From contig JAFCMP010000346.1 of NCBI GenBank assembly GCA_017506865.1, forward strand, positions 310,001 through 374,000: a DNA stretch of 64,000 bases. Direction: 5' to 3'. The notes below the pieces were generated by a model. That model searched no databases. It worked only from the letters and a program-made list of their open reading frames with translations, and was not told where the DNA came from. This DNA comes from Tribonema minus. Taxonomy: Eukaryota > Sar > Xanthophyceae > Tribonematales > Tribonemataceae. Both the position numbers and the translations under genes were made by a program. Below, piece by piece: positions 8,562-64,000 of this stretch (the first letter of the stretch is position 1; each line of letters begins with the position of its first letter).

Positions 8562-8566
8562 CTCAG
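8333..8566. repeat. Dispersed repeat, copy B
   Basis: This is the same-orientation partner of 1117-1375. It ends in GTGGCTCAGGCGCC, which coincides with the inner breakpoint of the right inverted arm. The junction of the inverted duplication may therefore have been seeded in, or have cut, this repeat. Confidence 0.5.
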
Positions 8567-10000: not shown

Positions 10001-10009
10001 TGGGTGTAT

Positions 10010-11595: not shown

Positions 11596-14500
11596 CTAGT
11601 TCCCCGTGATGAGGTACTGGCGCGTGCGCAGCGCGACCTGCGCGAGCAGCAGCGAGACGGCGCCCATGGCGCGCTCGTCGCGCGCGCCGAGGCGCGAGAG
11701 GAAGTCTATCCCCACGACCAGCACGCCGAGGGTCGCCCAGACGAGCACCTTGAGGTGGTACGCACTGGGGATGCGCCAGCCCATCTGCATGGCGACCATG
11801 GGCCACAGCGCGAAGACCGCGAGCGCCGCCGACGCGAGGACGCTCAGCAGGTTCTGCGACCAGCGGTCGAAGCCGTAGCGCGCGACCCAGAACAGCGCGC
11901 CGCCGATCGCGCAGAACTCGCCGAAGAAGACGGCGAAGAGCGGCCACGTTGGCGCCTTGACGGCCCACGCGTTCTCGTGCTTCTGGCAGCGCAGCGCCGT
12001 CGCGAGCATCGACAGGAACGCGTACACCTGGACGTAGGTTGTGGACAGCCACACCTGCGGCGTGTGCAAACGCAACGTAAGCGAAGGCGTGAGGGGCGGC
12101 ACGATGAGTGCTGCATAGTGTGCTCAGTAGAGCAAGCGGGGGCCTTGGGGGTAAGTAGGTTTCACTTGCCGCGCCCCTCGCACTGCGACTCCACGGGCTG
12201 GCTGGATGCCGCAAATCTGCGTTGCGCGTCGCTTACGCCTCTTCGCCGCCGCCGCAGTTCAAGTTGATGTTGCATGCATCTGCACAAACCTTTCTGCCTT
12301 GCTGCATCGGCGCTCAACCATCCAGCAGCAGCAGCAGCGGCGGCGGCGGCAAAAGCGGCAGCGGCGGCAGCAGTGGCGGCAGCGGCAGCAGCAGCGACGG
12401 CAGCAGCAGCAGCAGCGGCGGCAGCGGCAGCAGCAGCAGCGGCAGCGGCAGCACTCACCTGCTCGTCGCGCTGCAGCTTGTTGGCGTCCACGCCGCGCCA
12501 GCTGCCGCTGATGAGCGTGGGCAGCATGGCCGACACAATGTACGGCGTGAAGAAGAGGAAGAACTCGGCGACCTCCGTGTTGAAGGGCGACTCCCCCGTG
12601 ATGCCGTAGATTATGGGCATGAGCAGCAGGATGTACCCCGGTATCGCCTGCAGTGCGCAGCAGACGGGGTAGGGTTAGGGGGGGGGGGTTCACGGGGTGA
12701 AGTGGTCTGTTTGCTGTGCACTGCTGCTGTGTACGGCAACTGCCAGAAGGCGAACTCATGACTGCTGCTGCTGGACTGCAGTACTGGCGAGCAGCATTTG
12801 AGGCCTTTGGTGCCATGAATCCATGAGTGCGGGCGGCGCCGGTCACTGTGACGTGCAGGCAGCAGCGGTCAATAGAGCACTGGAGGCCTACTAAGTTGTT
12901 ATGGACTGCGGCAAACGCCGCAACAGGCTGACACCTGCTTGTTTGCAATGCTGATGATGACAGCAACTCCAAAGGCTGAGGCTGCATGCACATAGACAGG
13001 GCTCTGTATGTAAATGTGCTCAGGGCAGCGCTCAGCAACGGGCACCAGGAAGCAAAGCAGGTTAGCGCCGCTGCGGTACTCCATCACAGGGCAGCTTGCG
13101 CCGGTCATCAAGCCCGGAGCGAATGGCAGCATGCGGAGCCTGGTCGGTGGATGCTATGAAGAAGTGTGTTGTGTTGAGCCTTCACAGCCTGACGCGACCA
13201 ACTCAGTTTCCCGCCTTATGATTGCTGTGTGTTGGCGGGACGTAAAAGAACGCATCTGCAGGAAGTACGTGGTCTGATCAAAAGCGCATATGAGATGCAG
13301 AGTGCCTGCTCTGTCCATACTGCCGTGTGTGTCAGAAACACACCTGCAGGTAGTACGTGGCCTGGTCAAAGGCGTACACGCGGTGCCAGATGGTGGGGAA
13401 CTTGCCGCCGAAGCTCGTGAACGTGATGCCCTTGTAGAAGAGCAGCTGGACAGCGCCCTGGTGCCACCGCAGCACCTGCAGCAGGCACTCAGCACAGGGC
13501 AAAGGAGTGTCAGTTTCAACAAAAGAAGAGCAAGCTGGATGGCGCCGTGGTGCCACTGCAGCACCTGCAGCAGCGCTCAGCGCCAGCGCCAGAGTGCATC
13601 AGTAGGCAGCGCGCAGACAGCGCAGCAGCCGCCTCTTGCGCATTGCGCCATGCGGAATTCAGGGTACTTGTTGTCAATCCTCGCTCAGGGCAAAGACTCC
13701 CGGATTGTTGTTTGTCAACCTTGCTACCAGAGAGCGCATGCGCACCTCCTGCCTACCGACGGACACCAACTTCAAATCATGGGGATGAATGGTCGAGCGA
13801 CAGCGATTGGGTCGATGATGATTGTGATCATGGCGCACTTGCCTGATGGGCCAAGCGATGCTGTCGGGCTGATCCGTGCGTGCGTATGCTCCTGCTTGAA
13901 TGAGTGAGTAATCGTAACTCAGACAATGCACATGATGGCGGTTGCGGCGCACCTGCTTGATGCGCCACGCAATGCTATCGGGCTGATGCGCGCACGCGTT
14001 CACATTCCTGAATGAATGAGTGAATGATCATGAATCACCATGAGTGAATGATCATGAATCAATTAACGAATGCGATGAATGGTTGCGGCGCACCTGCTTG
14101 ATGCGCCACGCGATGCTGTCGGGCTGATGCGTACATGTGCTCAGGTGCTCCCCCGGCTCATTGACGTAGCGGCTCGTCCACCCGTGCCGGAACATGTCGA
14201 TGCTCGTGTGCGTGTCCTCGATGAGCTGCGACCAGGTTCACAGGGGTACAGATTGAGTTCACAGGGATACAACATGGGTTCAGATGCAGTTCTGATGCTA
14301 GCGTGCCCATGAGGGGCTGCCAGAGCATGCTGGTGCTTGTGTCTTGAATGCTCTGCGCGCTGCGCACCTAATGATACAGAATGAGGTCAAAGCGGCGCAC
14401 AGCAGGTCTTCAAGCAGTTCACAGAGACATGCGGCTCGTGCCTTCGCGTGCCGGGCCACCAGTGTCTGTGCACACCGCGCATGCTTGATCAGCTGTGGAC

Positions 14501-17500
14501 GCACAGCACTGCGCAGCGAGTGCGGCTACAACTACCCCCCTACCCCTCACTTGAACCCTCACCCCAGCCCCAGCCCTACCCCTACATGTTGGTTCAACTT
14601 GTGCAGCATCCTCCAGCCACCGCTCAGGCAGAGTCAAAGGTCTCAGCTGCCGACCGTGCAGAGCCCCAGCAAACAGCCCTCCTCATCAGGCGCCACACTT
14701 TCACGCTGAGCTACAGTAACGATGTCATCGCTCAGTCGACGTCAGCGCTCACCATCTCGCTGCGGAAGCCGACCTCGCTGCCGATGAGGGCGCGGTTGGT
14801 AGGGTCCGCGTAGCGCGTGCCGTCCGCCGCGAGGCCCTTGAGCGCTTCTACCCTCCAAAGACTGCCGTGGCCGCTGCGTAGGGTTAGAATTAGGGTCAGG
14901 GGCAGGGTTCGGGTTAGTGTTAGGGTTAGGGTTAAGACTAGGGTTAGCGTGCCGTCCGCCGCGAGGCCCTTGAGCGCCTCCACGCGCCATAGACTGCCGT
15001 GGAAAGACTGCGTGGCCGCCGTAGAGTTGGGCTCAGGATAGGGGTAAAGGTAGAGTTGGGTTGGAGTTAGCGTCCTGTCCGCCGCGAGGGCTTTGAGCGC
15101 TTCCACACGCCACAGGCTGCCGTGGTCGCTGTGCGGGGTTAGGGTGGGGGGTAGGGGTAGGGGTAGGGTGAGTACTAGGGTTTGGCTTAGGGTTAGGGCT
15201 AGGTAGCGAGGTGTGGCGAAGGTCAGCAGCAGCAGTGAGGGAATAGATGCGATGCTGCTGGTAGTTTATGTAGTTCGTGCACACTACATAGCGACCACTG
15301 CTGACGACATTGTCATGCTGCCAGGGCTGAGCCTCAGTCGTCATCGTGAATCATGACAGCTTTCCGCGCGCATGTTGAGGAGGCAGCGGCAACGCCGTCC
15401 TTGCCATGATTGAAGGCGCCGAACTGCGCCGCGGCAGTGTTGATCTACTCTCAAATCGTCAAGCCACACTCTCTCATCGCTTCAAGAAGTGACACTCCAC
15501 TGACGTGGACGTGGCGGTGCCGATAATGTCATCCACGGTGATTAAACAACGTCATGCTGCATCGCGGCATCAGTGACTCAAAGGTTCAAGTACTACTTCG
15601 ACAAGCGACGCTGCACTGACCTCGATGAAACAGCGCCGATGCCGTCCTTGCCGTGGTTAATGATGTTGTACGCAGATAATGATGTTGTACTGCACTGCAG
15701 CATTGTTGCCTACTTTCTGCAACAAGGGACGCTCCACTGACCTTGATGAAACGGCGCCGATGCCGTCCTTGCCGTGGTTGATGATGTCGTACTGCACGGC
15801 GGCGTTGTTGCCCAGGGGGTCGTCCTCCGCGTTCATGTCCTTGGGGAAGCGCTGGGGGGTCTGCACAAAGGCCACCTGCAGCGACGGAGTGCGAAGGATT
15901 AGGGTTAGGGTTAGGGTTAGGGTTAGGATTAGGATTGGTCTAGGGTTAGGGCTGGGGGGTCTGCACAAAGGCCACCTGCAGCGACGGACGCGCGAAGGGG
16001 TAGGGTTGGGGTTGGAGTTAGTGTCGAAGGTCAGGGCTAGGGTTAGGGTGAGTGTTAGGGTTTAGGGGTTAGAGGTCGAGGTTCGGTTCGGGTCAGGGCT
16101 GGGGGGGGCTGCAGAAAGGCCACCTGCAGCGACGGACGCGCAAAAGACTTAGGGTTAGGGTTAGGCTTAAAGATTACGGTTGGGCAGACGCAGATCGCTC
16201 CATGCGTCCTGCACGAGCACTGCTGCGTGGGTGCATACTCGGTGTGCCGGCCTGGGGAGGGTCAGGCTAAGGCTTAGAGTTAGGTCAGGGCTAGGGTTAT
16301 AATTTGCCGCGCCAGGGTCAGGGGGGTGTCTGGGGGGGTTTGTTGCGCTTGCTCACATTGTCCAGTACTGTGTGGTGCTAGTCGCCACTTGCACGAAGTT
16401 CACCCGCTTGCACCAGCTTCAATCCTACCGTCCTGAGCGCTGCTGAACACGCGCGCGGTTCAACATGTGATGCCCTAGGCCAAAGGTTAGGGTTGGTGCT
16501 CAGGGCGGGGTATGCATCGGTACATACTACGCTCGCTCACCCTGTCCCACATGTACTTTTTCTTACTCCCCTCCCACCCGCTCAAGGCAGCGTTGCACTT
16601 GTAATGCGGATCGCTGCGCGCGCCCTACATGAGCACTGCTACGTGGATGCGCACTCGGTGTGCCAGCCTGATGAGTGTCAGGGTTAGACTCAGACTAGGG
16701 CCAGGGCTATGTATCAGTATATGTTATGCTTGTGCTCACCCTGTCCCACGTGTACTCGAGGCCGGAGCCGTCGTTGGCGCTCTGCTGCAGCTTGAAGAAG
16801 TACGGGACGGTGCGCTGCAGGAAGTTGGGCTGCAGCTGGTGCCTGCGGGGATGGGGGGCGGCACGCGCACACGCGGAGCGCTGTCAGCTGGCGCTGGCGC
16901 ATATCGAGCGCGCTGTCAGCCGATTACGAGCGATCTGAGCGGCGCTGCTGCTAGCATGCACAAAGGGCAACGTTCACTATTGGGTGCACTGGTGGGCAGG
17001 CACGCTCCAACCAACATCGCGGTGGAAGCGCAGTACTACACTGCGGCGCGCTGTCAAAAGGGTGACTGCAGCGGAGCAGTGCCACGCTTGCCGTCAGCAC
17101 AGTCTGACAGGAAGAGCGCGAAGATCGCACCTCAACCAGGGGGTTGCGGTTTGCGAGCGGGGGCTGGTGAACCTGCGGTCATTGACGGCGATGATGGTGC
17201 AAACAATGACCAGGTTCTTGTCGTACGGATAGTCTACACATGGCAACACTTTGGTATGCCTTGCGGTCGCACACATGGTTCTCGCAGTGAAACACTAATG
17301 GCAGCAGCGCTGCTGCAAACCGGTCCCCTCCTGCAAAGGTTGCGCAACACTAAGTGCATGCACACATGCCGACAACACACATAGGCATCGCATGTCTCGA
17401 TCTATTCAGAGTACTGCATTGCTCATGCTGCCTGCCTCGCCCCCCCCGCACCTGCAGTCGTTGACGGCGATGATGGTGCTGTCGCCCACCAGACTCTCAT

Positions 17501-20500
17501 CATCCGGATAGTCTATCGGGAACAGCGCGCTGTTCATGTTGCCGGCCTTGGGCGACACGCGCGGCGTCCCCGGGTCGCGCCGCGTGTAGTACACGAGCGT
17601 CGGCAGCGCGCCGTTGGTGGAGAAGGACTGCATGAAGGCGGGCGGTATCTTGGCCGCGCCCTGCGGGATGTTGAGCGCCTGCAGGAGGCCCTCCACGAGG
17701 TGCCGCGCGCTGCGTTTTTTCTGCGCGCGCGGAGCGTCACGGTTGAAGTTGGTGTCAGAGTTGAGGTTAGGGTTGGACTACGGTTAAGGGGGCCTGCAGG
17801 AGGCCCTCCACGAGGTGCCGCGCGCTGCGCTTCCTCTGCGCGCGTGGAGCGTCACAGTTGAGGTTGAGGTTGAGAGGTCAGGTTCTTATATGAGGGTTTC
17901 GCTCAGCACACTTGAAGTCGTCACGTCAAACTTGAAGTAGTCAACTTCAACTTTAACGTTGACCGCGCGCGCCCGGTCCGGGCTCATCGCTCATGACCCG
18001 TGAAGCTGTCAGGTCAAACTTCTAGAGCAGTCAAGGGAAAACTTCAAGCATTAATCCTCAACTTGAAGTTCACTGCGCACGCACCTGATCCGGGCTCTGC
18101 AGCTGGTCCTCCGGCATCTCCGTCAGGTTGAACAGGTTCCCCTCGTTCCCCTCGCACAGCGACAGGCGCAGCATGAACTCGAGCAGCTGGCACGCGCGGT
18201 TGAGGTGCGAGTCGTTGTACAGGTGGCGCCGCGCGTGACCGCCGCCGTCGCGCCACCACTCGTACAGCCCCTTGGCGTCGATGGACGCCGCGTTCTCCGC
18301 CTGCAGGATCTGTACGATGCTGGGGCTCCTGTAGGGTCAAAGGACGGCGGCAAGCAATAGGTTATGTTTAGGGTCAGGGTTAAAAGTATGGTTAGGGTTT
18401 TTGTGGAGCTTCAATGTTGGGGTTACAGTTAGTGTTGAAGTGCCCTCTGCCATCGCGCCATCACTCGTGCAGGCTCTTGGCGTCAATGAACGCCGCGTTC
18501 TCCGCCTGCAGAATTGGTACAATGCGCGGGCTCCTGGACTCAGAGACGGGGGTTAGGGCAAGGGTGACGATTGATATCAGCGCTACGGTTAGGGCAAGAG
18601 TCAAGGTTGGAGGTTGCAGCAGGGTTGATGTCGAGATAGGGGGGATCGGAGCGAGGGTTGAAGTTTGTCATGCGAGGAGCGGGCCATGTGAATGACAGCA
18701 ACGCTCAGCACGACAAATGACAATGCAACAAAGCATGTCTGAGGGTTATGAGGGTGAGGATCGAACGCTCTGCGTGCGCGTGGCTGCCGCCGTTCACAAT
18801 CCCGTACCAGGCCTCTTGCACTGTTGAGGCTGAAGCTGAGTCAGATGCTGAGTCGAAGTCAGCGTTGTGAAAAGGCTGGTACATACCCTGGCTGCAATAG
18901 CATGCATGCGCTCTGACGTAGATGAAAGTATTTTACTGAGAAGTGCTTCGATGGCTCCAGCAGCAGTGGTGTGGAGCAGTCACCTGGCAACTGTTGTCAC
19001 CTCGCAACAATGGTACAGTTCAGATAATAACCATACTCCATACTCTGTGCACAATCAGACTCCAATGTATAATTCAAAGTGAGACATACAGCAGCGTCAG
19101 TGCTTGGCAGTCACGTGGCGAGCGTCGCCAGCGCGTACACGGCCGCGCAAATCTGCAGCACCGCCTTGGTACTACGAATACATTGCAGTACTTCGAAGTA
19201 CACGCACTTGAAGTATGACAACGTGTCAACGCTCAGCAGTCACCTTGCGAGCGTCGCCAGCGCGTACACGGCCGCGCACATCTGCAGCACCGCCTTCCGT
19301 CGCTTCTCGTCCAGCACGATCACCTTGAACATCGCCGACTGCAACGACACAAATTGACACCGCGGATGGACGGGAATTGCGTAAGCACGGGCACTGGTGC
19401 TGAGCGCTGTTGTGAAAGTCTGTGTCTGTGTGTGTGCGCAAGTGCTGTGAGCTACTTCATGTCGCTCAGCGAGGGGGTACAATCACCTTGAACATCGCCG
19501 ACTGCGGCAGCAGCAATTGACGCCACACGCAAAGGGCATGAGCGCGAGCGCACAAGTGCTGAGCGCTGTTGTGCAGGTCTGTGTCCGTGCCGTGTGTGTG
19601 TGTGTGCGCGCGCAAGTGCTGTGATTCACTTGATGTTGCTCAGAGGAGCTGGTTCAATCACCTTGAACATTGCCGACTGCGCCAGCAGCAGCAATCAGCG
19701 CCGCAGACGGATATCGCGTGAGCGCGCGCATTATTGCTGAGCGCTGCCGTGTACACCGCCGACGGCGGCAGCGGCGATAGGCGCCGCGAAGCGAGCGCGC
19801 TTGAGCGCGCACACACCAGTGCTGAGCACTGCTTTTATGGCACGTGTCTGCGTGGTGCGTCTGTATTCGTGCGTGACCGCTGTGAGTTTCTGCAGCCAGG
19901 GCCCAAGCAGCAGGCAGTAGGCGCCATAGCCGTATTTGTGCGCTACATCACCTACATAGAACCCCAGAGAGCTCTCCACAGAAACTCAACCCAGGGCATG
20001 TATCATCTCGCTCCCGAAATGCGTACATACCCCCAGCCAGACTGGGTACTGTAGCGTCGTTATTTGGCCTCTCATCTGCGTCTCGCTGCTCTTCGAGCCC
20101 GCCCGCAACTTCCGCGCTGACGGTGCCCTGGCGCTTCCAGGTCAAAACCTGTTTGTCGACCTTGTGCACAGCGGCGCACATGTACATCTGCCCTGTGTGG
20201 CGGCATGTTGTGATGTGATGTGCTATTGACAGTTACATGACAGTTACGCCAAGTCAGCAGCGCTCAGCTCCAGCGCACCTTGCTCTTCCTCCCGCACGCC
20301 CACATCCTCTGGCCGATGCACCCCAGCAGCGCCAGCATGACGACTGTTATTCAACAGTCACATGACAGTCACGCCAAGAGCAAGCAGCAATGCTCAAATT
20401 GCCTCGACTCGCCTTGCTCTTCCTCCCGCACGCCCACATCCTCTGTCACATGCGCCCCGGCGTCAGTTCAGTGGGGTCGTGATGGCAACTGTCGGATGAC

Positions 20501-23500
20501 AGTCATGTGACAGTTACATGGCAGTTACATGACAGTTACGCACCTTGCTCTTCCTCCCGCACGCCCACATCCTCTGGCTGATGCACCCCAGCAGCGCCAG
20601 CATGACAATGTCCAGGCGCTCCCCCGCGGTCGGCAGCAGAATGCACACGCGCGCGTTGTAACTGCCATGCACGGCGCGAGCAAGAGCGGAAGATACGGTG
20701 CAGCAGATAACATGAGCAGCGCCCAGCCTATATGCAGAGCATGGCAAATGACACGCAACAATTGTCACTGGCGCACACGGCGTGCGCGAGCGAGAGCAGC
20801 AGACACAGCGCAGCAGATGGATGTCAGCAGCGCTCAACTAGCGTAGACGGGGCATGAAGAATGACCGGGTGCGCACGCGCGCACTGCAACATGGCTCAGC
20901 AGATGATCCCAGCAGCGGTCAGCTGCCATGTACTCTCAAAACATGCGGTTAAGGGGCGTCGTGTGCCGTGGCAGCTTAGGGTTAGGGTTAGGGCTAGGGT
21001 TAGGGTTAGGGTTGTCGTATGCGCCGCGAAGCTGTACACACGCTCGCCAACGGTCGTTGTGAAACCGCCAATAGCATGCTGTGCGTGGGGACAAGCCGCC
21101 ATGTGTGTGAGGTCTGAGAGCATGGGGCCACGTGGCAGCAACAGGCCGCCTCCCATCAGGCACTTGCAGGTGCATTTCGCATTGAGGAAAGACCGGGGAC
21201 AGGACGGCAAACTGTGGGTTCAAAGCATCAAACAGCTACAATTCTCACACTGTATGCACTGTGTACACTTCAATATTTATCGTTGGTCCAGTACTTCACA
21301 CAGTGGCAGCTACAGGCGTGGTCCCATGCTGCATGTATTCAGCATTTGTACCGGCAAGTGTGCCAGCAGTAGGGGCCCATGCTACGGGGGTGCCATCTGC
21401 ATGCTGCTTTTTGCGGTGGCAAGTCAGTGGCGGCTGTTGCGGTTCCATTCTGCACACACGGACGTTTGTTGGCTTTATTGTCCGTCGCATATTGCACATA
21501 GTGACAGGCCAGTTGCGGTGCCACGCTGTGTGTACATCAACACGTGTGTGCAGTCGGTATGCTGCAGGAACTCCGTGGGACTGTCCGCGCTAGAGCACAG
21601 GGCACTGCTGAGCCATGCCACGTGATTGCCTGCTTGTTTGTATGGATGTGCGTCGGTATGTGATTCATAGTATGTGTGTATGGCACCACGCTTGAGCACA
21701 AGCGCTTGGCACAGGCCGTTGGTAATGATGTGGTTCCTTGCATGAAAGAGGATGCTGATATCAGTTCACAGGCGTACAACTGAGCAAGAAAGGACATGCT
21801 GGCCACATGAGGGGGAAAAAACAGCACACTTGCGCTGCAGCGCCTCTAGCGGAATGCGCCCGTAAGACTCGATTGTTGAGGTGCATGCCTGTCGTATATC
21901 GCACGTCTCACGAAACACTTCAAGTACGAGTGCTGCAGAGGAGCACAGCAGCACACGCCTTACTTCAACTACGATTTCACACCAATGCACCGTGAACTGT
22001 ATTGTCCGTCGCATATCCCACATGATGACAGTACAGTTGCAGTCCCAGACTGCATGCATCAACAAGTGTATGTAGTGTGCCAGGGTTAGGGCTAGGGTTA
22101 ACATTAGGGTTAGGGTTAGGATTAGGATTAGGTTAGGGTTAGGTGCACACTCACGCTACGGTGCCGTCCGCCATGGCCAGCTGGTCCATGGTCAACACCG
22201 GTCTGCAGCGATACATGACAGCACACAGCGTGGTACACCCAATGTCAGCAGGTCGCGTGTATGCCAAAGAATGAGCTGGAAGTTAAGCGGCGCGTCGTTA
22301 TCAAACTGCGACGCTGCGGTTCAATGACGCCGGTGATGCATCAGCCGCCGCGCCCGCTGCGCGTTGCAGACATTGGCGAGCCGCGACACAGCAATACACC
22401 CAATGTCAGAACGTCGCCCGCGCATGCCAAAGAACGAGCCCGGACCTTAGTGGCAATGGGCGGTGATGCGCATCGAAATCAAGGTGGTGATGATCAACAG
22501 CTGTCACAGCTTGTCAGTGCTGCAGTGAACGGCACGGGGGTCATGCACCAGGCGCAGGCATCTGCTGAGCTGCAGTGCGCGAACACTTCAACTTCGCCAG
22601 ATGCGCGCTAGCATGGGCAAGCCGTTGTCGCTGCTGCAACTGCCATGTATCTGACACAAACCATTTCGCGCATCGTGCATCACAACATACACACATAAAT
22701 GCATATGTACATACAGCACCATATACTTCAAGTTGAAGTTTCCAGGTCGCGAGTGTGTCAACAAGGCGAGCCTGGCCCTAGCCGTAACCCTAGTTCCAAT
22801 CCGTGAGCAAGGGCGCGCACCTTGACACCGCAAACAGCCGCTGGCTGTGCCCAATCCATATCCCAATCGTCAAGCAGATCTGCCAGCACGTGCACACACA
22901 CAGGGGCAAACAATGAGTCTGTGAGTCTGACATGCGGAAGTACGCAAGCAGCGCCGCCGCACGGCTGTGCCAGCAACGTGTGTGCTCCTCGTGACAGTGC
23001 TGGTCAGACAACGGGGCGGATTGCGCAAAACCTGAAGCCCCCTACACTAGCCGCAGCCTTGGGCATGCAGCCCTGACTGCAGAGGAGCATCCTGACTGTG
23101 GCTCCGAGCGTCGTTGCACGGGAGGTGGTAGCTGCTCACACAAACCCTAGCCCTGGCCCTAACGCTAACCCTAGCATCGATCCTGCTGCGTGTCGCTGCG
23201 CACTGCGGCAAGGTTGAAGTACTACTTGAAGTACCACCCAGCCAGGCAACACACTACAACATCAAGCCAGAAGCACTGACCATCAGCATGACTGCGTTGA
23301 GATGAGCCTTGGGGAATCGGTCACTGTTCTGAGGTACGTACCTGCCCTCTACCCCCTATCCTCTACCCCCCTACCCCCTCCACATCACCACGCACCGTGA
23401 GCGCGTTGCACAGTGAGGGGAAACACGAACCACTAGTGTCCCCTGCTGCTGCGGTCAATACAGCCCTACTGCGACATGGCATGCTTCATGAATCTGCATG

Positions 23501-28021: not shown

Positions 28022-28222
28022 GCCACCCTTGTGTTTCACCTTTCTCAACTGCCACTCCAACTTCAATCGCCACATAAACTTCAAGTCGCCACAGTGACAA
28101 CGCATCGCGCAAACGGCAACGCAGCCGCGCCCTACGTCACTGTTGGCTAGTGCATAGTGCACATCGTTCTGTGATCCACACCACCAGCTCGACTCGCGGC
28201 GCTACAGTCTGCCACGTGCCAC
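28022..28222. promoter_or_regulatory. Bidirectional promoter region
   Basis: Only 201 bp lie between two start codons that point away from each other (28021 minus, 28223 plus), so both promoters must share this segment or overlap the 5' exons. It contains a CTTCAA motif near 28060-28085 and no clear TATA box. Confidence 0.5.
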
Positions 28223-32308: not shown

Positions 32309-32345
32309 TCAACTAGAAGTTGAACTAGAAGTTGAACTTCGCTTC
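32240..32345. repeat. ACTTCAA/TTGAAGT motif cluster at methyltransferase 3' end
   Basis: Tandem near-palindromic GAAGTTGAACTA units run into the last exon of the methyltransferase. There they encode its terminal Ser/Thr tail (SSTSSSTSS) and the TGA stop. The same motif is scattered through introns and intergenic DNA of the window. Confidence 0.7.
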
Positions 32346-39840: not shown

Positions 39841-39876
<36 letters not shown>

Positions 39877-54700: not shown

Positions 54701-57700
54701 CAATTCTTGCCTGTATTGACTGTACATAACTACCCGGCTGCGCGCCGCCGCGTACGGCAAGGGGTCCCTGCCGGAGTTCGACAGTGAGGACTTTGTGGCG
54801 TGCTGCCGGCGAGCGCTGCCGCGCTGCTGTCAATACTTGCCATCATTGACAGTATAGAAGTACATACCTACCCTGGTGCGCGCCGCCGCGGACGGAGTTC
54901 GACAGCGAGGACTTTGTGGCGTGCTGCCGGTGAGCACTGCCACACTGCTGTTTAATTGCCTACCTGTAATCAACTGTACGTACCCGCCCTGCTGCGCACA
55001 TGCTACGGGCGGCAAGGGGTTCCTGCCGGAGTACGACAGTGTTGACTGTGTGGCGTGCCGTACGGGAGCGCTGCCACACTTGCCTGTCGCAACCGCACCG
55101 CACCCACCCAGATGACGTGTACTGTATTGTACACCACTGTACGCCACTGTACCGTTGTGGACACTGTTGAGGGACCGCGGAGATGCGACCACACGCATTC
55201 ATCCATCATCCATGATCTGCTCTGTAGTGTACACCACTGTACCTTGATGTGAACCACTGTACCATTGTGTACCCAATATGGACTCTCGTGCTCATATCGT
55301 CCCGCGGCGCCTCTCGCGCTCCCCCAGGAAGCTGAGGGTGCTCAACAGCCTGCGGGACGCGGAGGTGGGCATCCCCATCACCGCTCAGCAATACGACGCC
55401 ATCGGCCCCGACGCCGTTATCCAGAGGCTGGTTCGGCGGCGGTTACACTTTCTCGCTCTGAGGGTGAGTGGCACCGGCTTCAAGTAAAACTTGAAGTAGA
55501 GCTTCTGGTGTTTTCCCTCGAAGCTGCCCCCCCACTGCTCAGCGGTACGACGCCATCGGCCCCGATGCCGTTATTCAGAGGCTGGTGCGGCGGCGGCTGC
55601 ACTTTCTTGCTTTCAGGGTGAGTGGCGCCGGCTTTGATCGATGCTTTCAAGTAGAGAATATTGGGGTTCATCTCCCTTGGAGATGCCCCCCAACGCTCAG
55701 CAGTACGACGCCATCGGCCCTGATGCCGTCATCCAGAGGCTGGTGCGGCGCCGGGTACACTTTCTGGCTTTGAGGGTGAGTGGCGCAGACTTTAATTACC
55801 TTTGAAGTAGAGGATTTTGGCGTTCATCTCCCTTGGAGATGCCCCCCAACGCTCAGCAGTACGATGCCATCGGCCCCGATGCCGTGATCCAGAGGCTGGT
55901 GCAGCGGCGGCTGCACTTTCTGGCCTTCGGGGTGAGTGGTGCTGGTGTCAGCCAACACTTCAAAGTACTTGGCAGTAGATAATTATTTCCTTTTCATGAG
56001 GTTGCCCCTGCCGCTCGACAGTACGACATATTCGGCCCTGACGCCGTGATCCAGCGGCTGGTGCGGCGGCGGTTACACTTTCTCGCGCTGAGGGTGATTG
56101 GCACTGGCTTTGACCAATACTCTGAAGTAGAGTTTTTTGGGTGCTTTTTCATGAAGCTGCCCAACCACCGCTTGGCAGTATGATGCAATCGGCCCCGATG
56201 CCGTTATCCAGAGGCTGGTGCGGCGGCGGCTGCACTTTCTGGCTTCAAGGGTGAGTGGCGCCGGCTTTGACCAATGCTTGGGAGAAGAGCTTTTTGGTGC
56301 AGTTTAATGTTGCCCCCCCCCCACACACACACGCCGCTCGGCGGAATGATGTGATTGGCCCCGATGCCGTTATCCAGTAGCTGGTGCGGCGGCGGCTGCA
56401 CTTTCTGGCTTTGAGGGTGAGTGGCGTCGGCTCTGACAAATACTTTGAAGTAGAGTGTTTTCATGTTTTTCGTCGAAGTTGCCCTCCCACTGCTTGGCAG
56501 TACAACGTAATCGGCGCTGATGCGGTCATCCAACTTCAAATTTGGCGGCGACTATGGCGGTTACACCTTCTTCGCTCTGAGGCTGAGTGGCGCTAGCCCG
56601 CTTCTGATTAAAAGCAGCCGACTGCAAGGAAGGCCCTCCCCTCCCCTATACCTCCGGAAGTAGGGGGCAAGGGACCCTCAAGTGCATGTGGCAGGACAGG
56701 TGTAAGCTGCGCTCAGAGCAGGTCAGATACCGTCACCTCAACTCAACAAATGTGTTTTGCGTGTGAATGTGAGTCACCTTCTCATGCTGCGTTCCTGCGT
56801 TGAACCTGTCATCATGAGAATACGTACATGCTGCGGGCATGAAGTCTGCCTTGCGCTAAAAGGGCGCCATTCCTTTGTCAAACACCTGCAACAGCACCAT
56901 GGCAATGCAAGAGAAGTTGGAATCTTCCACAGCAATTTCAAAGCTGTTGTGCACAACTTCACTTGAGGCAAAAATTGGGGACAGATGAGCGCTTTAGGTC
57001 ACAAACTTCAAGTTGTGACGCACAACTTCTGCACGGAGAGGTCTAGAGTTAGACCCCCCTGCAGGCCGCGAAGCGTGGCCGCAGCCTCGAGACTGCAGTA
57101 AGATTCCTGCCAAGCGCCAAAACGCTGCACGCGGTCAGCGCCGCCTGGGCAGCAGCACCCCACGCACTGAAGAGCCAGCGCCAGAATAAGCTTGAGGCAT
57201 CCCGGGTGTTCCCACAAAACCGGTCACAGAATCTCAGCACGCTGATTGGTGAACGCTGCATACTCATTCACCAGTGTTCTGCTCATCATTGTTTCGTGCG
57301 TGTTTTGTGCACTGCCCACAGGCGTGTCAGCATCTGAAGCTGCCTTCGGATGCTGTGGCAATAAGGTATGTGCATATGCTAAGGCAACTCTGCACGCGCG
57401 CATGCTGTCACTGCTCTGGCGTACGGATTGTAGGTGTGCCAGACATTAGTCCGTGTTTCAGCAATAGCTGCCCGCTCATCAGAGATCTGGGGGCTTGGCG
57501 CATATGGCCGACAGTGCACACAGGCGCCACGTGAAGGTTAGGGTTAGGGTCAGGGTTAGGATTAGGGTTATACATGATGTCGCCGCGACGAGCTGCGGCC
57601 CGCGCATACCCTAGGTTTAGGTTTGGGAATAGGGTAGTATCAGGGTTACGGGTAGTGTCGCGCGATGATCTTCACACCGGCAGCATCACACCTCGCGAAC

Positions 57701-60700
57701 CAGCGCGCATTGAGCGCGTCCGGTCCGCGTGCGTGACAGACCCCCCCCCCGCCCCTCCTGCAGCTGGGTGTGCACAACGCGTGATGACATGCTGTGTAAT
57801 GCGCTTTTCGTCCACAGAACACTCCAAATGCTACATTTATGGAAGCACACACGTGCTTCAAAGCAACGAATTCAGAATATCGTGAGGCTGCGAGCGCCCC
57901 CCGCGCCCCCTGTGCGACACTCTTTTCATCTACAGGACACTCCAAATACTACATTCCGGAAAGTATACACGCACTTTGAAGCAGCGCATTCAGCGTTTCT
58001 TAAGACCGCGGGCGTGCCCCACCACCCTCTTGCCAGGTGGCGAGCCTGAAGGTGTGCAAGTCAGAGCTCATCCTGCAACTTCACTTTGAAGTGATCAATA
58101 TCATGGTCATCGTTCCAGCCTACCCTCCCCCCCCCCACCCCGCTCCCCCCGCACAGCTGGGCGTGCGAGCGCCTAGCATGCCAGGACGCAACCGCAATGT
58201 CGGACGAGGTGTTGCGGGATCTCATCAGGGACAGGCTGAGCCGTGGCAACAGCGGCGGCGGTGGCGGCGGCGGCGCCGCGCGCGCGCAGGCGAAGACCAC
58301 CTACGCGGACGTGGCCAGGTACATACCTCGAAGTACGTATCTTGAAGTAACGTCGAGTTATACGTTGAGTATAGCCTAGCTGCTTGTTGCATATCTCTTT
58401 AACTTCGCATAATGTGTATTTGGGAGGCACGGCGGCGGCGGCGCCGCACGCGCGCCAGCGAGCGCCACCTGCGCAGACGTGGCCAGGTGCAGGTCACGAC
58501 TGTGTAACTGCCGCTTCTTGTCGCGCTGTTTCTGCCAGAGCAGCGACGCTGCTCAGCCATTCGTATTTATCCGCTTCCTCAATTCATTCATGAAACCACT
58601 CATGCAATGTGTCATGATTGTGTACTTGACACTTCTTCTCGCCGTTACTTCCAGAGCGGCGACGCTCCTGAACCATTCTCAATCTTCGTTTCCTCAAGTC
58701 ATTCATGAATTCACTCATGCACAGGGTCACGATTGTGTACTTGCCACTTCTTGTCTCGCCATTACTTCCAGACCGGCGACGCTCCTGGGCCGTCTTCAAT
58801 TCATTTATGGAATGTGTCATGCACAAGGCCATAATTGTGCCCTTGCGACTTCATGTCGTGCGCCGTTTTTTTCAGAGCGGCCACGCTGCTTAAATTCATT
58901 CATTCATTCATGCAAATCATTCATGCAGTCATGTATGTTTTGGCCCCTCATCTCGCCGGCGACGCTGCTGAACTATGCGCGTAATCATCCGCAGCTTCAA
59001 TTCATTCATGAAATCACTCATGCACAAGATCATGATAGTGTACTTGCCACTTATTGCCTCGCTGCTTCTTGCAGAGCGGCGACGCTCCTAGGCCGGCGCA
59101 GGCTCGCCACGCTGCTGCTGGACCTCGAGCCCTTGGCAGCAGACCAGGTGACCACTTGTGCAATTCACCTGAACTACTGTACAATGCGCTAGGATTGCCG
59201 CCCTCTAGTGCTTTCTTGACTGAGAAGTGCTGCAGGTTTTCCGGCAACGCCACTCTGTGTCGTCAACCATGCGCACAGACCTGGAGCCTCTTGACAGCAG
59301 ACCGGGTGACCACTAGTGCGACTCTTGCGAACCGCAGTGTGCGAGGATTTGCCGCGCTCGCTGGCGCTCCTCAGCTGAGCAGTGCTGCAGGTTTTCTGGC
59401 AACACCGCATTGAGTCGTGGAGCCCCTTGGGGGCAGACCGGGTGATCACTCTCGCGAACTACAGTGTGCGAAGATTCACGCTTTATTGACTGAGCCGTGC
59501 TGTAGCATTTGGCAACGCTGTCGCCGCACCGCTCCGTGTCATCAACTGTACGTACCTACCTGGAGCTCCTTGGGGGCAGACCAGGTGACCACTTGTGCGA
59601 CACCTTTTTTTTTAGTTACTCTTGCGAAGTGCAATGTGCGAGGATTTGCCGCCCGCTGGCGCTCCTCAACTGAGCAGCGCTGCAGGTTTTGGCAACACCT
59701 CTCTGTGTCGTCAACCACATGCACAGACCTGGAGCCCCTGGCGGGCAGATCAGGTGACCCACTTGCGCGACTCTCCTGAACTGCAATGTGCGAGGATTTG
59801 CCACGCCTGCTGGCGCTTTCTCGACTAAGCTGTGCTGCAGGTGTTGGCCACGACGTCGTCGCACTGCTCTGTGTCGTCAAGTATGCGTACAGACCTGTAG
59901 CCCTGTGCGGGCAGACCAAGTGACCTACTTGTGCACCCTCGTGTGCAGCTGTTACTGCACGAGCGTGCGCGATCTGGTGGTGCTCAGCTGATGATGCTCA
60001 GCAATCGGATGCGCTATAGCGTTCGCGAGCTAATGAAGCTCAGCCTCAGCATCCGTTGGATTGACGTTGCTGCAGCGCTGTGACTACTCTTTCCATGTCT
60101 GCATGTCTAATAGCACATGGTTTACTCCATGCAACAATCCACACCCTCGCAGGTGCAACTACTGCTTGCCATGAACGAAGACGAACTCGCGCTGAGACGT
60201 GCTGTCGCCAGTGGCGATTACGATCTCATAGCGCTCGTGCTGCTGCAAGCGGAGGACGGGCGCCGCGCCGCTGCGCTGTCGCTGGACGGCAGCGGCAGCG
60301 GCGGCAGCGGCAAGGCGCAGCAGCAGCAGCGCTCAGAAGGCGCGCGCAGCGCCCTCTTCCGCGCCGCGCAGGCGCACCCGGAGGCGCTGAGCATCCTCAA
60401 GGTGCGTCGCAGTTGAACTTATAGACTTGCACCGTTGAGCTTCTGCCTTCATTGCGATGGGCGTGTCTAGTTGGAATTATGACGGGGGTGAGGGGCGTGA
60501 GGCACCCTGTGTGCCGTGAAGACCAAATTTGGAGGCTGCAAATGGGTTTTGATCTCAAATCTACAGGCTCACGATAGGTTGCAAACGGGTTTCGGTGTCC
60601 TTGTGTATAAATGCCCACGTTCCTGGTTCATGCCGTCAAGCTTCGCAGCAATTGCCCGGCTTTCTCACCAGCACCATGTGGCCTGGACTGAAGAGCCTTG

Positions 60701-63685
60701 ACACCATTCGTGCTTCTGATGGCGTATTTATAGACTAGATGTCTGATGACCGCCAGCGTCATGCGGAAAACCGCAGTTACAAATTCGCTGTCGATTCGAG
60801 GTCTGAGCGGAGTCCATTGACCTGCTCGATTGCTCAGCGCTCACATTGCGTGTGTGCCAGCGCTCAGCTCTCCATGCGTTGCGGCCGCCGCGCATGCACT
60901 GCGTGCAATCTCTCGATGCTTCACGTCGCGCCTTACCCTCACCCTAACCTCTCCCTCGACCGGCTGCGTCCCACGTCGCGACAGGCGTACTACAGCAGCA
61001 GGAGCGGGCTGGCGGAGAGGCGGCAGCTGCACGCGCTGTGCACGTTCTGCGGACAGTTCCTCGACGCAGGCACCCTGGCAGTTCAGGTAAGGCGCCTTGT
61101 GAGCATGCCCGTGCTCACATTCTCGGGTTGAAGTTTGACCCCGTCACGCCAACGTCACTTCAACTCATGTGTAGCGGCATGGGTGACTTGACGGGTCTGC
61201 AGACAGGACAGCTCCTTGACGCAGGCGCCCTGGCAGTTCAGGTCAGTCACATCTTCAGTTCGAAGTATGGCAGCTTCGTGCAACCATCACTGCCATTCAT
61301 GACTGTGTAGCGATGTGGATGACTTGGCGACGCTGTGCGCGTTCTGCAGACAGGTCTCTTATGCAGGGCCCTGCAGCGCAGTAAGCAAGCACGGGCGTTG
61401 TTGTTGAGCATCACGCACTAGTGACTTGGTGTCGAGCACAGGCATACCATCAGTGCACACTTGTCGCGCTGCGGCGTGGTGCGCAAGGCGTATGCATGTA
61501 TATTGCAGGCAACGGCAGCAAAATCCCTGACCTGAGCATTTTTCCGCAAGTGTATCTTGTGCCCCCAACGTGGTCCCCAGTTGCTCCTGTGGCGCTTATT
61601 GTGTCTCATCAGGTACGTGGCGCAGACTTCAAGCGTGCGCTGCGCTGCCGCGTAGTGCGCAAGGTATGCGTGCATGCAGTAGCAGTAGCCCTCACCCCAA
61701 CCTTAACCCTAAACCCAGGCATGGCTATTTTCCTCCCGAAATCCCATTACCTAAGGGACTCCGATTATTTGCTTGTGACCCTAGCATGCCTGCTGCGCGT
61801 GTCTGCGCAGGCAGCGTACGAGCAAGCGCGGCTCGAGGACAGACTCGCGGGCCTGCGGGAGGCGGAAAAGCTCTTCTCACAGTCCAGGTATCATAGTTCA
61901 ACTTCAAGTTGGTTAGGTCGGGGGAGCTCTGTGAGGGTCAATGTGGCATTACTCGTTTATGCTGTTGGCCCCTTTCCGGGATGCGAAGAAGCTTACGTCA
62001 CAGTCCGGGTGACTTGCGATTAGGGTGAGGGTCAGGTCAGGCCTACGGTTAGCCTCCTTCCGCGAGGGGGAGAAGCTCTTCGCGCAGTCCAGGTGTCTCT
62101 CTCAGCGATTGAAGTTGAGCATAGGTCACGGTGACTGTGAGGGTTGAAGTTGGCCATTCTCCGGGAGGCGGGCCTGTGGGAGGCGGAGCTGTTCTCACAG
62201 TCCAAGTACATCAAGATTGAGGTTATGCTGGGGCGATTTGTTAGGGTCGTTTAGCATCAGTCAGTCATGCTAATGACCTCTCCCCGGGGAGCCTATGTCA
62301 GAAGCTTTTGAAAGTCACTGTCCATGTGACTTTTAGCGGTTGAAGGTAGGCGTAGGGTTAGGGTCAGGGCAGGGTCAGAATCAGAATGTGGAGCTATGGT
62401 TAGCCTTCCTGCAAGAGGCAGAGAACCGCTCCTAACAGTCCCGGTGGCTCTCAGCAATTAGCATTGAGGTTGCGTTCCTAGTAGTTATTGTAACACTCTG
62501 CGGACGTACATAAGGTGTGGCATTGCTTGTTTATCCTATTAGCCTCTCTCCGGGAGGCGGATAAGCTAACAGTTCCAGTGACGCTCAGCAGTGAGGGCTG
62601 CGTGAGGGGGAGGGTTGACTGACTGTCCTGACTATGAAGGCTGAGCTTAGGGTTTGGGTTACTCCACGACTAGCTCATTGCGTTTGTTGTTGCTTCTTGA
62701 AGAGTTGAGTGTGCTGCCCGTTCGCTGTGAGATTCACGCCAGTCCCCCGTGCGCTGGCTGCAGAGTGCGACGGAGATGCACAATAGGGTCAGCCGTATCT
62801 GCGTGCCTCATTGCGCGCACCTCAGTGTATGGGCACTCTCTTCCTCATGTATGGACTTGAACATGATTTGCTGTTGTACTAAGCAAAATACATCAAGACA
62901 GGCCGGGCAAGTACATGCCGTGAGTGAGGCACTGCAGGAAGCAGCAAACAGTCTTAACGGCTCTCGCAGGGCGAGGCGATCCAGGGCCGGCGCAGGTGCT
63001 TGTGCGGCGCAGAGTCTCCAGGTCAGAGACCGAGAGGGCAGGGGCCGCTGCCGCTACTGTTGCGGCCGCGCTTTGAGCTAGGGCTGGAGGTCAGGGTTAG
63101 GCTTAGTGGTTTATACCACTGACCCGCAACATGCAGTTGCATGCGCACTTGTTTTCCAGCGTTGCTTCTGGATTGCCTCCTTTACGAGTCTCAAAAACTT
63201 CTGGTGGGCCAGCAGGCAAAGCATGCGCCGGTGCGGCAAGGATTGCAGTAGGGTCAAGTTTGCGGGGGTGACCTTCAGAGTTGGAAGGCTAAGTGTTACC
63301 ACGCTGACGTTCACCACCGTCAAAACAATCGGCATCCGTGCAGGCAGCATGCAAGGTCGCGCGCTAACCCCCGCCTGGCCCCCCCCCTACACTCCCCCGG
63401 TGCAGAGACCTGGCGTTCCAGCAGGGCAGCACGCGCGACCAGATCGACCTTCTCGAGGCGCAGCGCGATCTCGAACTCAAGGCGGGGCTGCCCCCGGGAA
63501 CTTTCCTGGACCTCTCCCTGTCCGACACCATCACCAAGGCCATCCGCATGTCGGCCATCGGCGGCGGCGGCGGCGGCGGGCAGGGCGAAACGGCCGCTGC
63601 GGCAGCGCTCGCCGCGCATGGCGCCGACGGCCGCGGCGCGCCCGTTCTCGCGACGGAGGCGCTGCGGCTGGCCAAGCGCTTCAAG
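45734..63685 (+). CDS. VPS16: VPS16, HOPS/CORVET core subunit (3' end beyond window)
   Basis: Fifteen exons join in phase to 882 aa: 45734-46441, 47455-47613, 48876-49003, 49998-50125, 51077-51141, 53043-53224, 54277-54429, 55328-55463, 57322-57365, 58157-58318, 59075-59147, 60153-60401, 60985-61086, 61811-61887, 63406-63685. VPS16 is a core subunit of the tethering complexes for endosome-vacuole fusion. Family marks: DWHSLGGVQYENLEIY and AAAPCGGPIAMVRDE (start of beta-propeller), WCGRDCVLLHW, LAPEVDCCRIIT, STEPAAMLFDAMEAFE, LLRAAAYGKGFLPEF, LRVLNSLRDAEVGIPI, GRRRLATLLLDLEP, LRRAVASGDYDLIALVL, TFLDLSLSDTITKAI. Low-complexity inserts sit in loops (exons 6, 10, 12). The last donor is GC (AAG|GCAAGC). 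About 100 residues should follow beyond the window. Confidence 0.93.
46565..46790. repeat. Two donor-edge copies of VPS16 exon 1
   Basis: The segment encoding LVALADGD plus GTGAGTGCGCATCGC recurs at about 46568-46625 and, decayed, at about 46738-46785. Spacing is about 161-168 bp. The first copy keeps a perfect donor. Confidence 0.85.
48545..48805. repeat. Two acceptor-edge copies of VPS16 exon 3
   Basis: The acceptor plus TFDTSTQEPPQQM-coding block recurs at about 48718-48800 and 48550-48622. The nearer copy retains CAG|GTGATGGCG exactly; the farther one is changed at the acceptor neighbourhood. The true exon starts at 48876. Confidence 0.88.
50194..50860. repeat. Five donor-edge copies of VPS16 exon 4
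   Basis: The block GCATCACGCAGGCG through the donor of exon 4 recurs beginning at about 50194, 50329, 50462, 50602 and 50786. The first four are 133-140 bp apart. Copies 1 and 3 resemble each other, and copy 2 resembles the true exon edge, including downstream intron sequence. This shows that a two-unit block was duplicated. The fifth copy is strongly decayed. Confidence 0.9.
51270..52240. repeat. Purely intronic tandem repeats in VPS16 intron 5
   Basis: Three repeat pairs lie in one intron: about 51273-51327 with 51380-51436 (CGAGAATT...GTACGAGTCTGGTCAC), about 51590-51700 with 51715-51830 (ACCGGCAAGTG... AACAGCGACCAAATCA), and about 51855-51945 with 52165-52235. They show that duplication also affects intron sequence away from exons. 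Confidence 0.75.
51965..52012. repeat. Telomere-type repeat island
   Basis: Several consecutive TTAGGG units with minor variants lie in VPS16 intron 5. The block AACAGACCAAATC flanks the island on both sides, as if the island had been inserted with, or within, a small duplication. Confidence 0.9.
52430..52925. repeat. Acceptor-edge copies of VPS16 exon 6
   Basis: The acceptor-plus-ADEHIRAM region is echoed at about 52475-52530 (GAGGCCGACGAACATGTCCGCGC) and 52618-52640. A copy of the upstream intron (CGCCACCTCCTC...CCATG) lies at about 52830-52890. The true exon starts at 53043. Confidence 0.7.
52657..52712. repeat. Telomere-type repeat island
   Basis: Units of TTAGGG broken by an AT-rich insert lie in VPS16 intron 5, between two acceptor-edge copies. 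Confidence 0.75.
53755..54246. repeat. Four acceptor-edge copies of VPS16 exon 7
   Basis: Units starting CTGATGGCGCT and encoding the GGMLAEAVAACIA edge begin at about 53759, 53883, 54008 and 54123, then the true edge at 54249. The segment 53883-54122 is nearly identical to 54123-54362, so the array grew by copying a two-unit block of about 240 bp. Each unit ends in TACTTCAACGACTGCTT-type intron sequence. Confidence 0.92.
54495..55075. repeat. Five donor-edge copies of VPS16 exon 7
   Basis: The exon end (YGKGFLPEFDSEDFVACC) and its GTGAGCGCTGCC donor recur near 54500-54570, 54620-54695, 54738-54815, 54885-54935 and 55005-55075. The first two keep the donor; later ones change it. With the upstream array, exon 7 is flanked by copies on both sides. 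Confidence 0.92.
55530..56600. repeat. Seven donor-edge copies of VPS16 exon 8
   Basis: The last third of exon 8 (YDAIGPDAVIQRLVRRRLHF) plus donor recurs seven times. The donor position falls at 55464 (true), then about 55618, 55776, 55932, 56094, 56251, 56417 and 56583, a period of 154-166 bp. Five of seven copies retain GTGAGT; one reads GTGATT and the outermost GCTGAG. Each copy also begins with an acceptor-like C-rich tract before its CAG. Confidence 0.95.
57535..57655. repeat. Telomere-type repeat islands in VPS16 intron 9
   Basis: Two TTAGGG-type islands (about 57537-57570 and 57608-57655, the second degenerate) are separated by a short GC-rich segment. Confidence 0.8.
57735..58495. 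repeat. Exon-edge copies of VPS16 exon 10
   Basis: An acceptor-edge copy at about 57738-57790 repeats the C-rich tract, CAG and W-V-C codons. A donor-edge copy at about 58428-58495 repeats the GGCGCCGC...GACGTGGCCAG|GT end. The real exon is 58157-58318. Confidence 0.75.
58495..58985. repeat. Five acceptor-edge copies of VPS16 exon 11
   Basis: The unit (GTGTACTTGCCACTTCTTG, acceptor CCAG or GCAG, then GCGGCGACGCTCCT) recurs near 58498-58565, 58610-58680, 58722-58795, 58830-58890 and 58930-58980. CATTCATTCATG-type runs link the units. The true acceptor ends at 59074. Confidence 0.9.
59255..59945. repeat. Five donor-edge copies of VPS16 exon 11
   Basis: The exon end (LEPLAADQ) plus GTGACCACTTGTGCGA-type intron recurs near 59275, 59405, 59550, 59720 and 59893, each preceded by a copied CGTCAACCATGCGCACAGAC-like block. 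Most keep GT at the donor position. Confidence 0.9.
61185..61380. repeat. Two donor-edge copies of VPS16 exon 13
   Basis: The exon end (GQFLDAGTLAVQ) plus donor recurs at about 61195-61250 with an intact CAG|GTCAGT, and decayed at about 61330-61385. The true donor is at 61087. Confidence 0.85.
61470..62590. repeat. Edge copies around VPS16 exon 14
   Basis: Upstream, two acceptor-edge-like copies (GTGCGCAAG near 61480-61500 and 61650-61680) precede exon 14 (61811-61887). Downstream, six copies of its 3' part (LREAEKLFSQS plus donor) lie near 61955, 62050, 62155, 62285, 62400 and 62540, at 95-140 bp spacing. Two keep CCAG|GT; the rest are changed at the donor. Confidence 0.8.
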
Positions 63686-63814
63686 GCAAGCAATCGTGTG
63701 TGCGTGTTGCGCAAGTTGAGGCGGCGGTGAGGCGAAAGCGCTGCCGCCTGCTGCTGTGGCACTGTTCAGCATAAAAGGTTCGGCAGCGCTCGACACGGCA
63801 TGCTGCGGCAGAGC

Positions 63815-63870
63815 TCAGCGAATCTGGCGACGGAGGCGCTGCGGCTGGCCAAGCGCGTTAAGGCGAGCGT
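63815..63870. repeat. Donor-edge copy of VPS16 exon 15
   Basis: The exon end (LATEALRLAKRFK) recurs as a near-identical block followed by AAGGCGAGC, so the GC donor position is copied as GC too. The true donor is at 63686. Another copy may continue beyond the window. Confidence 0.85.
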
Positions 63871-64000
63871 TGTTGCGTATTGTCGCGTGTTGTGCATGTG
63901 GAAACGGCGGTGAGGCAAAACCACTTCTGGTGCTGTGGCAGGGCTCGGCACGAGTGCTCAACACGCAGCATGCTGTGGCGGAGCTTAGCACATGTGCTGC

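Follow-up and report, generated by a model that had tools for sequence, protein, structure and literature searches.

Most predicted exons of three genes in a stretch of the genome of the xanthophyte alga Tribonema minus are accompanied by tandem copies of their own edges, each copied unit comprising the end of the exon, its splice site and, usually, the adjoining intron. The stretch (hereafter the window) spans 64,000 nt of contig JAFCMP010000346.1, within a 158-Mb genome of 554 contigs, and the genes encode a cellulose-synthase-like GT2 protein, a SET/PHD methyltransferase and VPS16. At least one edge copy was found at 22 of the 31 predicted exons of these genes and copies of both edges at 7 of the 31, a set that includes one mis-called copy and excludes any exon with a score under 22 or a length under 60 nt. 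These arrays are an extreme case of the internal tandem duplication already known from other genes. Probably these introns undergo recurrent tandem duplication, the copies decay neutrally and the exon-derived part stays recognisable longest.

All exons are predictions of a small gene finder, for which the window and the genome served as training data. The finder was applied to 254 kb, made up of the window itself, four regions totalling 80 kb that surround CesA-like paralogues of the GT2 gene (C548, C14, C6 and C479) and 110 kb elsewhere; the sample outside the window is small and was partly picked as CesA paralogues. Over the 254 kb, 109 exons with a score of at least 22 and a length of at least 60 nt were kept. 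An edge was counted as copied when its 40 bases found a match with a Smith-Waterman score of at least 20 within 1 kb.

Exon edges in the window and beyond

By this measure 5' edges had a copy at 14 of 33 in the window, 10 of 39 in the paralogue regions and 6 of 32 in the other regions, and 3' edges at 19 of 34, 18 of 36 and 11 of 32, respectively. The corresponding numbers for exon centres were 0 of 20, 3 of 27 and 0 of 30, and copies were found for 15.8% of 600, 6.7% of 600 and 10.2% of 1200 random non-coding 40-mers. The comparison of edges with random intron windows thus leaves the observation standing, edges being copied more often in the window. At score 20 the reverse-complement control matched no edge and one exon centre, and the flanks of other genes were matched in 0 of 264, 2 of 312 and 0 of 256 comparisons for 5' edges and in 0 of 272, 4 of 288 and 0 of 256 for 3' edges (window, paralogue and other regions in each case). 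These two controls rule out chance as the origin of the copies.

The copies have a strict polarity. Those of 5' edges lay upstream at 30 of 104 edges and downstream at one, and those of 3' edges lay downstream at 48 of 102 and upstream at one; both exceptions are predicted exon 54622-54684, itself a mis-called copy, so that no true exception exists. An earlier reading of the window, made from the sequence only, had described this polarity, edge copies at most internal exons of the three genes and one to seven copies per edge, and all three descriptions agree with our counts, VPS16 exon 2 having six clean copies and one degenerate one.

The pattern is patchy; it extends beyond the window, and a genome-wide extent is not demonstrated. 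Copies were found at 33 of 67 edges in the window, 13 of 20 in C548, 8 of 27 in C14, 7 of 24 in C6 and 0 of 4 in C479. Fourteen of 20 edges had a copy in L027 (G000:C1:1000001-1010000), a gene that is myosin-like by its translation and, lying on a different contig, serves as an independent case. The ten further 10-kb pieces in the sample gave 3 of 44 edges (1 of 6 in L021-L022, 2 of 11 in L026 and 0 of 27 in the rest), and 14 of the 17 edge matches outside the window and paralogues came from L027. A survey of edges across the genome sample therefore finds the pattern at some loci elsewhere and shows that it is not uniform. R1, a piece without edge copies, has short predicted introns. Two extra regions held out as a test gave no support: no exon was predicted in L029, and L028 yielded five doubtful exons, four with no edge score above 17 and a fifth of low complexity that matched everywhere. 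The C479 paralogue (L015-L016), with none of its four tested edges copied, has a lower predicted G+C content at third codon positions (0.71-0.84) and may be in decay or evolving in a different way.

The copied unit and the limit on its exon part

From 187 candidate copies, 146 passed identity and length filters, and four of these were removed as their source exon, 54622-54684, is itself a copy. The remaining 142 copies, at 77 edges, comprise 68 from the window, 47 from the paralogue regions, 22 from L027 and 5 from elsewhere. Their spacing has quartiles of 117, 146 and 177 bp (median 146 bp), in agreement with the unit of usually 110-190 bp first described. The exon part of a copy measures 30-80 nt in 117 of the 142 and exceeds 90 nt in 11, and the intron contributes the remainder of the spacing, with a median of 77 and a 5-95% range of 44-151 among 71 nearest copies. 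The intron beside the copy was homologous to the intron beside its exon in 103 of 141 cases, against 15 of 141 in the reverse-complement control; in a stricter set such homology was present for 36 of 40 inner copies and 47 of 63 last (terminal) copies. The unit has thus been duplicated directly and in tandem, taking in the exon edge, the splice site and usually the adjoining intron; because such a duplication straddles a single splice site, its geometry accounts for the polarity.

Self-similarity is dense in these introns as a whole, and the edges are its visible part. In introns of at least 150 bp, self-similar segments occupy 14-34% of bases depending on length class, against 0 in block-shuffled controls. 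Repeats internal to introns have a mode of 100-150 bp (58 of 219 pairs), and in a self-BLAST of the window 131 pairs of repeats lay on the same strand with less than 6 kb between them, some being of low complexity. Edge copies were present in 0 of 2 introns below 150 bp, 2 of 7 at 150-300 bp, 7 of 13 at 300-500 bp, 14 of 27 at 500-800 bp, 18 of 25 at 800-1500 bp and 6 of 10 at 1500-6000 bp. As to the proposal that introns here grow by recurrent short tandem duplication, the duplication is borne out by this self-similarity and the growth itself is probable.

The exon part of the unit is limited in length. Among nearest copies less than 260 bp away (63 edges), more than 90 nt of exon was copied at 5, against 22.6 expected for uniform breakpoints, and 0 of 20,000 simulations with uniform breakpoints gave a number as low. 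For exons of at least 200 nt, more than 90 nt was copied at 3 against 10.5 expected (n=21), and the limit of about 90 nt seems to be absolute, not a proportion of the exon. The fullest cover of an exon by a copy was 105 of 121 nt, in the C14 paralogue (positions 12710-12830 in the joined piece), so that the statement that a whole exon is never copied nearly holds; other matches covering at least 85% of an exon were judged to be of low complexity, weak (identity 0.68-0.77) or a mis-called copy. Selection had been proposed to remove whole-exon duplicates. Large exon copies are indeed depleted, but the limit lies near 90 nt even in exons of at least 200 nt, and we infer that its cause is selection against fragments long enough for splicing-in. 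Short exons are recognised poorly by splicing.

Origin and fate of the copies

Under the explanation that we favour, the introns of many genes would undergo recurrent tandem duplications of about 90-250 bp, and a unit lying across a splice site would include that site together with, in most cases, 30-80 nt of the exon edge and some 45-150 nt of intron. Of the resulting copies, the one adjoining the exon body would remain the functional edge and the other would become intronic debris, which would put copies of 3' edges downstream of the exon and those of 5' edges upstream. Arrays of up to seven would arise when homologous units undergo further slippage or unequal exchange, and a unit holding over about 90 nt of exon would be lost, most likely as a spliced-in pseudo-exon. 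The copies would decay neutrally, while selection on the exon and probable exchange between exon and copy would leave the exon-derived part recognisable longest, so that exon edges appear to be the copied thing. The data demonstrate the duplications, their geometry, the neutral decay of copies in bulk, the ceiling on exon length and arrays common to paralogues at one exon; the components that we infer are slippage or unequal exchange, gene conversion, and selection against pseudo-exons behind the ceiling.

The location of the excess was examined with 30-mers around 82 introns. On the exon side of donors, 25-51% of them have a copy (windows -75 to -15), dropping to 3% at -90, and on the intron side the proportion is 12-16% adjoining the junction and 16-28% at 45-300 bp; acceptors have the same profile at a lower level. 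For donors or acceptors, 7-18% of 30-mers just inside the intron have a copy and 10-31% of those 45-300 bp away, and the figure for the intron interior is 14% (n=1364). The copy excess is confined to the exon-derived part, and the junction-flanking intron, being copied no more than the interior, is not a hot spot. The sequence-only reading had splice junctions as such multiplied, and this is not supported: only exon-derived windows (up to 51%) are enriched.

These profiles bear directly on an alternative in which exon edges are mutational hot spots and a process linked to splicing or transcription (R-loops, pausing or reverse-transcribed pre-mRNA) duplicates junctions preferentially. Such a process would fit the copying of edges about 2-7 times as often as same-region random non-coding 40-mers, an edge excess beyond the prediction of a uniform model and exon breakpoints that, in 117 of 142 copies, are 30-80 nt away from the junction. 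However, junction-adjacent intron windows, expected in the same units, are not enriched, and intron-internal duplications with the same modal spacing are abundant. The unenriched junction-side windows rule out a junction hot spot as the sole cause, and we regard a hot spot of this kind as unlikely.

A further alternative, that the copies serve as alternative or decoy exon edges or as redundant splice sites under selection, draws on the frequent retention of reading frame, GT/AG and exon sequence. Across 38 multi-copy arrays, copy-unique changes are nearly flat by codon position (120 of 1841, 110 of 1831 and 136 of 1843, or 6.5, 6.0 and 7.4%; p=0.13), and exon-unique changes number 5 of 689, 8 of 688 and 25 of 691 (p=4e-5). 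The ratio of nonsynonymous to synonymous change (dN/dS) between exon and copy, pooled without VPS16 exon 2, is 0.40, which equals that of simulated neutral copies beside a constrained exon (0.40, 0.35-0.47 in 30 runs). Splice dinucleotides are retained in 63 of 88 copies for GT and 45 of 54 for AG, about 0.75 being expected when each exon base matches at 0.86-0.88; in two subsets anchored at the junction, of 62 and 39 copies, their match of 0.85-1.00 equals or slightly exceeds that of exon bases, a point in favour of function. In-frame stops number 21 in the 2590 copy codons of arrays other than VPS16 exon 2. In bulk the copies appear to be neutral debris without codon-level constraint, and the flat codon-position changes, splice-dinucleotide retention and neutral-like dN/dS rule out a function for them in bulk; we consider functional copies quite improbable as an explanation of the arrays.

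The VPS16 exon 2 array is the case most favourable to function. Its exon-copy dN/dS is 0.10 against 0.42 simulated, with 0 of 400 runs at or below 0.12, and the peptides of five of the six clean copies differ from that of the exon at only 2-4 of 28 residues; the sixth carries an in-frame stop. The simulation treats copies as independent and the array is one of the 38 examined, so its outlier status provides no more than a lead. The array is mosaic in its sites, 27 of 55 informative pairs in the exon and 20 of 28 in the intron being incompatible, as expected from copy exchange or from recurrent mutation. Another exon-edge array, with four filtered copies, lies in a ClpP-family gene (Pfam PF00574) at 6910-7413 on the minus strand of L009 (G000:C548); its three nearest copies keep the peptide almost intact, and the copy-copy ratio is 0.20.

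Wrong expansion of short repeats in the assembly can hardly be the source, given that copies differ from their source by about 13% in the exon part and 19% in the alignable intron parts, and that arrays of paralogues on other contigs differ in copy number and have partly homologous units.

Comparison of the GT2 gene with its paralogues, excluding from the matrix rows that pair exons of unequal boundaries, suggests concerted evolution between exon and copies in one paralogue family. The exon families of 13344-13475 and 14094-14225 have an equal predicted extent of 132 nt in C548, C14 and C6, with copies inside the flanking introns. Counterparts of exon 13344-13475 also have copies in C548, C14 and C6 (3' edge in the last), so that arrays at this exon are common to the paralogues; copy number differs across contigs and the units are partly homologous. 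The segment from exon to first copy has 12-13% mismatches between C548 and C14, where fourfold sites over shared exons differ by 26%, and 16% between the window and C14 (5' edge), where they differ by 34%; within this exon alone fourfold differences are 4 of 19 and 6 of 19, respectively. At the 3' edge, the window segment has no recognisable homology to the segments of the paralogues. At sites where the paralogue exons differ, copies match their own exon in 70 comparisons, the other exon in 11 and neither in 13, the comparisons being non-independent.

Several observations weigh against the account of recurrent intron duplication with neutral copies. The resemblance of copies to their own exon comes mainly from the family of exon 13344-13475, and at the 5' edge of the second family (B, 14094-14225) it is slight. 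Beyond the window, the paralogues and L027, most of the pieces sampled are without edge copies. Third-position copy-unique changes number 136 against 111 expected from base- and CpG-matched sites, the VPS16 exon 2 array misfits neutral copies in that its differences are unusually synonymous, and indels are fewer in exon-derived than in intron parts relative to expectation. A forward simulation with uniform duplication and a frozen exon gives a detection of 0.02-0.20 at the edge (window -30) and 0.04-0.41 in the interior, and the data, with 0.51 and 0.14, lie beyond it. Copies with an exon identity of at least 0.92 have anchored intron homology in 38 of 50 cases, against 0.93-1.00 in neutral simulations. 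Finally, 42 of 138 copies are less than 5% different at codon positions 1-2, and only 19 of 173 intron-internal pairs are less than 10% different.

As uniform duplication yields no exon-side excess in simulation, an extra factor is needed, such as conversion, faster turnover of introns or biased duplication; this factor, beyond uniform duplication and slower decay, is only partly shown. Slower decay of the exon part failed in simulation as the sole cause of the excess, and concerted evolution, for which the data are few, was for this reason added to the explanation. It seems that something in addition to purifying selection on the exon keeps the exon parts similar, or that intron turnover is quicker than in our models. 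A burst of duplication, considered as well, is not apparent from the exon-part ages, though young members are few among the intron-internal pairs.

Features of the window and relation to known systems

The features of the window are collected in Table 1. The GT2 gene has edge copies at 7 of its 11 retained exons, and its Pfam (PF03552/PF13632) and PDB matches derive from the exons of the C14 paralogue, not from those of the window. In the methyltransferase gene the SET domain (Pfam PF00856) was matched on joined exons 33487-33675 and 32382-32578, and a PHD match on 44291-44613 scores at about the curated cut-off. The 111-bp array was resolved by TRF as 4.6 copies with 92% matches. Vps16_N was matched on exon 45734-46441 and on joined exons 54277-54429 and 55328-55463. 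The automated list holds four copies for the array at 54430-55080, and one copy of this array (54622-54684) was mis-called as an exon.

Table 1. Genes, exons and edge-copy arrays of the window (positions in the window)
Feature	Position	Strand	Evidence or details
GT2 gene, cellulose-synthase-like	11600-26000	-	gene finder; conservation with four paralogues
GT2 exon, one copy per edge	13344-13475	-	3'-edge copy 13249-13298; 5'-edge copy 13524-13603
GT2 exon, two 3'-edge copies	14094-14225	-	copies about 13953-14002 and 13832-13882
GT2 exon, both edges copied	15742-15875	-	copies 15596-15671; 15940-16048 and 16090-16169
GT2 exon, one 3'-edge and two 5'-edge copies	19244-19338	-	
SET/PHD methyltransferase gene, edge-copy arrays	32382-44715	-	gene finder; Pfam
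SET exon	33487-33675	-	three 3'-edge copies within about 32900-33400; one 5'-edge copy
111-bp tandem array	36963-37472	-	four copies: 3' edge of exon 37424-37533, donor and intron
5'-edge copies of exon 38703-38931	38858-39593	-	
VPS16 gene, edge-copy arrays	45734-63870	+	Vps16_N PF04841
3'-edge copies of VPS16 exon 49998-50125	50058-50862	+	
5'-edge array of VPS16 exon 54277-54429	53735-54315	+	four upstream copies; TRF periods 126/240
3'-edge array of VPS16 exon 54277-54429	54430-55080	+	up to five downstream copies by eye
3'-edge array of VPS16 exon 2 (55328-55463)	55464-56595	+	six clean copies and one degenerate
Diverged 3'-edge copy of VPS16 exon 63406-63695	63823-63950	+	

A search of the window with Rfam at gathering scores gave no match. 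Outside the three genes, the window contains an inverted repeat (5411-6831 and 8562-10005) with 1.4 kb arms that are 95.7% identical; a predicted RWP-RK domain at about 5333-5440 lies at the outer edge of its left arm, mostly outside the arm. This domain, the ClpP-family protein and the CesA-like genes point to a plant or algal kinship. Short motifs are enriched in the 82 introns (78.6 kb). The telomere-like TTAGGG was counted 63 times and CCCTAA 53 times against about 7 and 8 expected (examples at 14879-14947, 15895-15951 and 20976-21013), ACTTCAAGT and ACTTGAAGT 14 and 9 times against 0.2 expected each, and TTGAAGTT 50 times, a 59-fold enrichment; an example site of such motifs is 32311-32338.

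Duplication of exons in tandem, associated with alternative splicing, leaves local exon copies in introns. The arrays described here differ in that only one edge is copied and never both splice sites, the nearest case being the exon covered at 105 of 121 nt, and in that the copies are neutral in bulk, with VPS16 exon 2 as an outlier.

The closest known process is internal gene duplication, which, as Gao & Lynch 2009 is relayed in excerpts of PMC7969005, involves short intragenic tandem duplications with a median of about 0.1 kb that are intronic and/or exonic and occur in up to 17% of genes in six genomes. The copies resemble these in lying in direct orientation beside their source within one gene and in having a contiguous source of exon edge and intron (103 of 141 copies), and differ in affecting 22 of 31 exons of three genes, often with several copies per edge. 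This is far denser than the 17% gene figure in those excerpts, the two figures coming from unlike methods. The sequence-only reading had held that no such genome feature was described; the kind of process is already known, as the excerpts indicate, and its density here is unusual. Tandem duplications touching splice signals are reported in PMC3443670 and PMC4974935, with a potato case that copies an intron-exon boundary, and for Drosophila in PMC2891723. Going by excerpts of these papers, our copies share the tandem duplication of splice signals, and differ from the cases in PMC3443670 and PMC4974935 in that they are intronic, the original edge stays in use and no exonic AGGT is needed. Introners, as excerpted from PMC9860276, likewise reflect one process repeated across many introns of a genome, but they insert into many genes, whereas the edge copies resemble their own exon; this comparison concerns exon edges only (at most 4 of 288 matches to the flanks of other genes), and short motifs are common to the introns. 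Among the published work listed, judged by title and abstract opening, no description of exon-edge arrays was found.

In such genes short tandem duplications evidently build up in the introns, which probably grow by them, at a density that leaves copies at about half of the edges of the window (33 of 67). Intron growth, the limits of exon recognition and gene conversion between exon and copy could all be counted by comparison of strains or haplotypes. Gene finders will mis-call such copies as exons, as happened here at 54622-54684 and in the VPS16 exon 2 array. We also raise, tentatively, the possibility that the catalogue of copies maps the length at which one-sided exon fragments begin to be spliced, and that some arrays (VPS16 exon 2, perhaps the C548 ClpP-family exon) may exchange with their exon or be spliced in. 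Introns would then receive scattered edges of all lengths, of which only the ones holding less than about 90 nt of exon would survive. If this is true, such arrays would be a reservoir of synonymous variants, and the genome a natural mutagenesis experiment in exon recognition.

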